DNA of 64,000 nt. Source: Utricularia gibba (taxonomy: Eukaryota > Streptophyta > Magnoliopsida > Lamiales > Lentibulariaceae). Position numbers and translations under genes: made by a program. The DNA lies in contig NEEC01000004.1 in NCBI GenBank assembly GCA_002189035.1, positions 3,968,001 through 4,032,000 on the forward strand, given 5' to 3'. Every line of letters begins with the position of its first letter. Position 1 is the first letter of the stretch. The notes beneath the pieces are model-generated. The model searched no databases. It was not told the origin of the DNA and saw only the letters and a list, made by a program, of their open reading frames with translations. Positions 4,415 to 6,516 of the stretch are shown here, piece by piece.

Positions 4415-4600
4415 TACGCGCACGTGCTGACGATTGTAAAACTGACACGGGGAATTTCAAACCGTGCGATGGCGCCCCTCGTAAATAATTCCAATTACAG
4501 GGTTCAATCATCAATGGGGTGGCTGCTTGATGGATGCAAGCCACGTGGCATAATCGCCACCGTGGGTTTTGGTTATAAATTGTCTCAGGATTCTCATTCT
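4415..4600 (+). promoter_or_regulatory. MIR168 promoter: two CACGTG G-boxes and a TATA box
   Basis: CACGTG palindromes lie at 4421-4426 and 4542-4547, and TATAAAT at 4574-4580. With TATA at that place, transcription would start near 4605-4615, about 100 nt upstream of the miR168 5' arm. The CACGTG core is shared by light-response G-boxes and abscisic-acid response elements. ABA/stress control of MIR168 is known in Arabidopsis; its extension to this locus is inference. Confidence 0.6.
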
Positions 4601-4708
4601 TACGTCGTTCTCCCTAGATGAGCTTCATATCTCGAGGCTTCTCTTTCTCCTGTTTAGTGTTCGCTCCTCCTCCCATGACGGCGTTGGTTCTTCGCTGCGG
4701 TTTCTAAT

Positions 4709-4729
4709 TCGCTTGGTGCAGGTCGGGAA
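4709..4729 (+). ncRNA. MIR168: mature miR168 (5' arm guide)
   Basis: A 21-nt segment identical, as far as I remember it, to the canonical plant miR168 with 5' U. It is embedded in a stem with the star at 4817-4837. Confidence 0.95.
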
Positions 4730-4816
4730 CAGATTGCGGCAACGGCGTCGATTCTTCTTAATTGAATCATGCTGATTAGGACTGCCACGAATCGACGCTC
4801 CCTTCTGCGGCGAGTT

Positions 4817-4837
4817 CCCGCCTTGCATCAACTGAAT
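4817..4837 (+). ncRNA. MIR168: miR168* (3' arm passenger)
   Basis: A 21-nt segment with the typical CCCGCCTTGC start of miR168*, about 90 nt downstream of the guide and complementary to it. Confidence 0.9.
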
Positions 4838-4850
4838 CCGACACCGCGGT

Positions 4851-5558
4851 GATTTTGAGGATTAATTCGGTTTTCAGACTAGGCGGATCTGAACTAGAAT
4901 CGGTGTTTTCCGGCCTAATATCTTGGATAACTACCTGGATCTACGACGGCTGAGCTGAGCAGATGATAAATCTTATTTCTGCTTGGGGAAGAATCATGTC
5001 TTTTTAGCTTTCTTTATCTGAAGAATTAATCTAATGTGCAGATTTGGATTCTTTCTTGAAAAGCGAATATGCTCTGGTTCTTTTTTCGTAGTTACAACTA
5101 CATATTGGATCTGATACTTCACTCTATTCGAATTGAAGCTTTTGGAATTCGGAATTGGTAGGAACATGTCAATTCATTGAAATCATGGAGTTTTCTTCTC
5201 TTGAAGGCTATGAACTTCTCCGAGCTTGTAGCTTTGAATGATGATAAGAATCCAGTGAGATGCATCAGGAGCGCTGCCTGCTCGATTTTCGGAAAAGTCA
5301 AGTTTCCACGGCGAAAACTGGAGCTAAAAAGTAAGCTTTGAACAAAAAGTCAAACAGGTTATTTAATTTGCGGTCTTCAAAGTCATAGCTTTCCCATTCC
5401 TGGGGAAAAATGTAGCAAGTACCCCAATTTAGTTCATTATTAGCAAAATATCTGAGTTTTGTAGGGATTTAATTGCAAATACATGATTAACAAATTGCAT
5501 AGACGTGTTCATTTGGTGAAGTAATAAGGTATGTTGTTGGTTGCACTTGAATCTTTTA
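4851..5558 (+). other. Probable rest of the pri-miR168 transcript
   Basis: Moderate-GC sequence with no long reading frame, grading into AT-rich DNA after about 5340. Its composition fits a noncoding primary transcript or its 3' part. The end is not defined by any signal I can trust. Confidence 0.35.
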
Positions 5559-5879
5559 GGGCGCGTTTGGTTGCTGGGTTTGGTTTAAACCCAAGTTTAG
5601 TTTATTTGGGTTTAGATAATCCGATTTCATAGGTTTAAAGGGTGAAATTCGTGTTTAGTTGATGGGTTTAGATTATTTGAGTTTAGGATGAATACACGAT
5701 TGGTAAGTGGGTTTAAAATTGGGTTTGTAATGATTTTCATATTAAATTATCAATATACCTTTTTAGTTAATTAAAAATAAATTATCATATATTTTATTTT
5801 TCTATATCATTTTATAAGTTCAATCGAGCACCGTATAGCATAAATTATGATGCTTAGTTGAAATTTTATCTTATAACAA

Positions 5880-5997
5880 GCACTGAGTAATAATATACAC
5901 GGTGCTTGTCTTCAAAACGAAAATTCACATTTACAGTAAGCACCGGATAATAATAGACGCAGTGCTCGTCTTCAAAACGAAAACTCACATTCAGTAC
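5880..5997. repeat. 60-bp imperfect tandem duplication inside the transposon
   Basis: Two adjacent copies share TCTTCAAAACGAAAA and CACATT, starting at about 5880 and 5940. They differ by scattered substitutions. Confidence 0.8.
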
Positions 5998-6057
5998 AAA
6001 AAATGAAAACCCAGAATAACATGCTGTTATTATTTTCATCTTTATATTTTTCTTTGT

Positions 6058-6163
6058 TTTCATCTTTTTCTTCTTTATTTTCTTATTCTTCTTCTTCTTT
6101 CTCTTCTTCTTCTTCTTCTTTATCTTCTTCTTCTTCTTTTTCTTCTTATTCTTCTTCTTCAAC
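6058..6163. repeat. TTC/TCTTCT microsatellite
   Basis: A long imperfect (TTC)n tract. It produces an artefactual Ser/Phe-rich frame on the plus strand and a Lys-rich frame on the minus strand. Confidence 0.9.
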
Positions 6164-6516
6164 AGATTTGGACAGATCTAAACAAATCTGTTACAGATCT
6201 GAATAAATATGCTACAAATATGTAGGAATTTTAACTTTCAAAAAATTGGTAAATAGATCTGTGCATCTGGTTTCTGATAAATCTACGTTCAAATATGGTT
6301 CACGTGAGGGCAAAAATGGAAGCACCAAGCTGGGTTTAGCTAAATCGACCCCCTCCCTCCTTGGGTTTAGCTAAACCCAACTCCATGGGTTACCGACTTG
6401 TTTATGGTCAAAAGGTGGGTTTATTTTTATCAACCTGAAATCCACGAACCAAACGTGGGTTTATGTCTAAACCCACGCCGCAACCCACCTAAATCCAGCA
6501 ACCAAACGCGCTCTTA

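Follow-up and report, generated by a model that had tools for sequence, protein, structure and literature searches.

The loop that links miR168 to AGO1 has been described in the literature, and a long lower stem has been noted as a feature of MIR168 (PMC2664809). In Brassicaceae, MIR168a has its start site about 100-150 bp before the mature sequence, and a 9-bp TCAGATCTG motif is found directly 3' of the MIR168 precursor (PMC2664809), and four ABREs were reported in the Arabidopsis MIR168a promoter (review PMC3856082). The typical spacer between guide and star in dicots is 50-80 nt, and tobacco precursors with long loops were expressed weakly (PMC4300679). Judging from its sequence, the locus described here, found in the window (the whole stretch of 64,000 nucleotides of Utricularia gibba DNA that was analysed), is an ordinary, probably functional plant MIR168 gene, and it almost certainly makes the small RNA that restrains the silencing protein AGO1. 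As a new addition to a well-known family, it brings little surprise.

The Rfam MIR168 model (RF00677) matched positions 4691-4854 of the plus strand with 93.9 bits (E 1.4e-21; gathering score 66 bits), spanning the covariance model in full (model positions 1-129 of 129), and this was the sole Rfam match above threshold in the whole window. The miR168 guide, TCGCTTGGTGCAGGTCGGGAA, occurs with 0 mismatches at 4709-4729 (+), where the chance expectation is zero matches; the mature miR168 sits on the 5p arm, and the star, CCCGCCTTGCATCAACTGAAT, lies on the 3p arm at 4817-4837 (+). At the sequence level, the complete MIR168 locus proposed by the initial annotation is borne out, with guide and star exactly where it had placed them. 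Folding of the RNA at 4690-4850, which it had also suggested, gave -73.4 kcal/mol, compared with -47.8 +/- 4.0 kcal/mol for shuffled sequences (z -6.47). In the predicted fold, 17 guide nucleotides are paired to the star, with single mismatches only at guide positions 4 and 15, and the pairing of guide nucleotide 1 with star nucleotide 19 and of guide nucleotide 19 with star nucleotide 1 leaves 2-nt 3' overhangs at both duplex ends. With two mismatches, exact overhangs and 0 of 200 shuffled sequences as stable, the foldback is as good as had been claimed, and the locus shows the structure expected of a plant miRNA, that is, a miRNA/miRNA* duplex with 2-nt 3' overhangs and few mismatches. Moreover, pairing extends below the duplex into a long lower stem. 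The spacer of 87 nt slightly exceeds the typical dicot range, a point that we count against a gene processed to miR168 and that, together with the weak expression of long-loop tobacco precursors, bears on how much of the miR168 pool this copy may supply.

Searching 100 Mb of the genome revealed three MIR168 loci above the Rfam threshold, one each on contigs C413 (which holds the window), C412 and C4. All three have the same guide, the same star and the same duplex geometry; their spacers measure 87, 45 and 102 nt, respectively. Minus-strand matches at all three loci (46-50 bits) fell below the cut-off and were discarded; they arise because the hairpin is near-palindromic. Only the precursor arms are common to the C412 copy and the window locus; the C413 and C4 loci form a duplicated block in which the promoter, the precursor, the 3' flank and the downstream PRONE gene are all alignable. 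C413 and C4 agree at 100% of guide and star positions, at 88-89% of those in the lower stem and at 53% of those in the terminal loop, a gradient that is the pattern of a selected precursor; outside the precursor, identity is 73% at -300 to -140 and 71% in the 3' flank, and it drops to 39% past 5080. The fourfold-site divergence of the PRONE gene pair in this block was about 0.58 (69 sites); this estimate, like the one for AGO1 given below, comes from alignments after removal of those containing stops. We regard it as very improbable that the window copy is a silenced or decayed duplicate, with a good hairpin and lost expression, and that the C4 or C412 copies are active instead. The mature sequence is common to three loci, and therefore the loss of one copy could be tolerated, and the long spacer would also suit such a fate; however, the window copy shows no damage to its guide, star or lower stems, and although the linked gene has diverged by roughly 0.6 substitutions per fourfold site, the promoter region from -300 to -140 is still 73% conserved with C4.

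For a MIR168 gene that is transcribed, candidate promoter elements are present. The initial annotation had reported a TATA box and two CACGTG elements just upstream, and all three are seen on the plus strand: a predicted TATA box (TATAAA) at 4574-4579, 135 nt before the guide, and putative G-box/ABRE-core elements (CACGTG) at 4542-4547 and 4421-4426, 167 and 288 nt before it. Given how often CACGTG occurs across the window, two of them per 300 bp have a P of about 0.001, which is a post hoc figure. In C4, both box sites retain the ACGTG core (CACGTG at the distal one; TACGTG at the proximal one, with the ACGTGG core kept), and the TATA box has an aligned counterpart (-168). The position of the TATAAA fits the start-site distance of the Brassicaceae MIR168a, and by analogy the upstream ACGTG boxes probably confer a response to ABA or stress. 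Besides, a block at 4469-4482, 5' of the TATA box (ATGGCGCCCCTCGT), is unchanged between C413 and C4 and could be a further promoter element. A sigma-70 promoter scan was set aside, having no meaning for a plant gene.

In keeping with the initial annotation's warning about reading frames, the ORFs overlying the precursor are short (<=68 aa), overlapping and distributed on both strands. The description of the stretch as gene-less holds locally and fails more widely: some 6 kb further 3', at about 10.5-12 kb of the window, the nearest recognisable gene encodes a PRONE (RopGEF) protein, and it is followed by a gene with a 2OG-Fe(II) oxygenase domain (about 14.7-15 kb). About 0.7 kb 3' of the precursor there is a 0.96-kb element (5558-6514) without a long ORF, which carries 24-nt inverted repeats at its ends (92% complementary, AGGGCGCGTTTGGTTGCTGGGTTT). 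About 40 sequences in the genome are related to its left 200 bp at 81-91% identity, so that it looks like an inserted non-autonomous DNA transposon.

The single less expected detail of the locus is a 10-codon ORF, MTALVLRCGF (4675-4707, +), that ends one base before the guide and has a counterpart of equal length and position, MTAVMLRGGF, in the C4 duplicate. If the primary transcript also encoded a short peptide, either from these 10 codons or from 29 codons starting at 4618, translation of the transcript could influence how accessible the hairpin is, or could produce a miRNA-encoded peptide, although we give this idea very little credence. The position is kept in C4, but the three amino-acid differences between the two peptides are all replacements (3/3) and the ORF is absent from the C412 copy among the three loci compared; because of this, no selection on the 10-codon peptide was seen in the C413/C4 comparison with C412 checked, and the peptide-coding reading was rejected.

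The AGO1 target site, which the initial annotation had recommended looking for in the same genome, was found in two AGO1 genes, on C1 and C321 (L017 and L018), where identical miR168 sites, CTCCGGACCTGCACCAAGCTA, lie in the frame SRP(A/P)APDLHQATQSA. The guide has three mismatches to the site (guide positions 2, 17 and 21), with a duplex energy of -36.5 kcal/mol; the Arabidopsis AGO1 site is also mismatched at guide position 2. Exons of the target genes match the Gly-rich_Ago1, ArgoN and Piwi domains, and the best matches of the Piwi exon of one of them were plant AGO10 and AGO1 structures. The two genes are duplicates of each other, lying in duplicated blocks with similar flanking DNA, and the next gene after each, as read from ORFs, codes for a ribosomal-protein-L1-like sequence. 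Their fourfold-site divergence is about 0.40 (149 sites), and the same duplication event is not claimed for the PRONE and AGO1 pairs because the fourfold sites are few (69 and 149). Other sites fit the target pattern with 3 mismatches: L011, L012 and L014 were rejected because they showed no AGO reading frame there, and one more was found on C451; a reversed-pattern control gave 3 matches, so weak matches of this kind are expected by chance. Since the sites are identical in two AGO1 genes and lie in the conserved frame APDLHQAT, the proposed role as AGO1 feedback regulator is well supported, and participation of the window MIR168 in this feedback is strongly implied by the sequences. It is practically inconceivable that the hairpin is a product of chance, or an inverted repeat derived from a repeat, and not a microRNA gene. 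The nearby inverted-repeat element (5558-6514) might speak for this reading, but it leaves the precursor outside; the z-score, the exact guide and star, the three loci and the AGO1 target sites argue against this reading, and the Rfam match and conservation already refute it.

With very high confidence, we consider that the locus is best explained as a plant MIR168 gene that would be processed to miR168 and close the AGO1 homeostasis loop. A Pol II transcript from near 4600 would fold into the hairpin, and DCL1 would cut the hairpin twice, first where the guide/star duplex has its base and then above the duplex, releasing miR168 (4709-4729) paired with its star (4817-4837). AGO1 would be loaded with miR168, and both AGO1 mRNAs would be cleaved or repressed at the APDLHQAT-coding site, closing the loop. 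We infer transcription, processing, loading, target cleavage and the ABA response from the MIR168 family.

The present locus leaves the understanding of the MIR168/AGO1 pathway unchanged, the gene family being well known. One plant genome now has a functional-looking MIR168 gene, MIR168 duplicates and AGO1 targets located, and the retention of both regulator and target as duplicated pairs makes it a handy case for dosage balance in the AGO1 loop. The Brassicaceae TCAGATCTG motif is not present as such at the window locus, which has GGATCTGAA at 4885-4893 instead. Unlike Arabidopsis MIR168a/b, the window locus has a longer terminal spacer (87 nt), and the genome has three loci instead of two. 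Overall, what is common to the window locus and Arabidopsis MIR168a/b (RF00677) comprises the guide and star sequences, the guide on the 5p arm, the long paired lower stem, duplicated loci, ACGTG promoter elements, an AGO1 target and a start site region, predicted in the window, that precedes the guide by about 100-150 nt.
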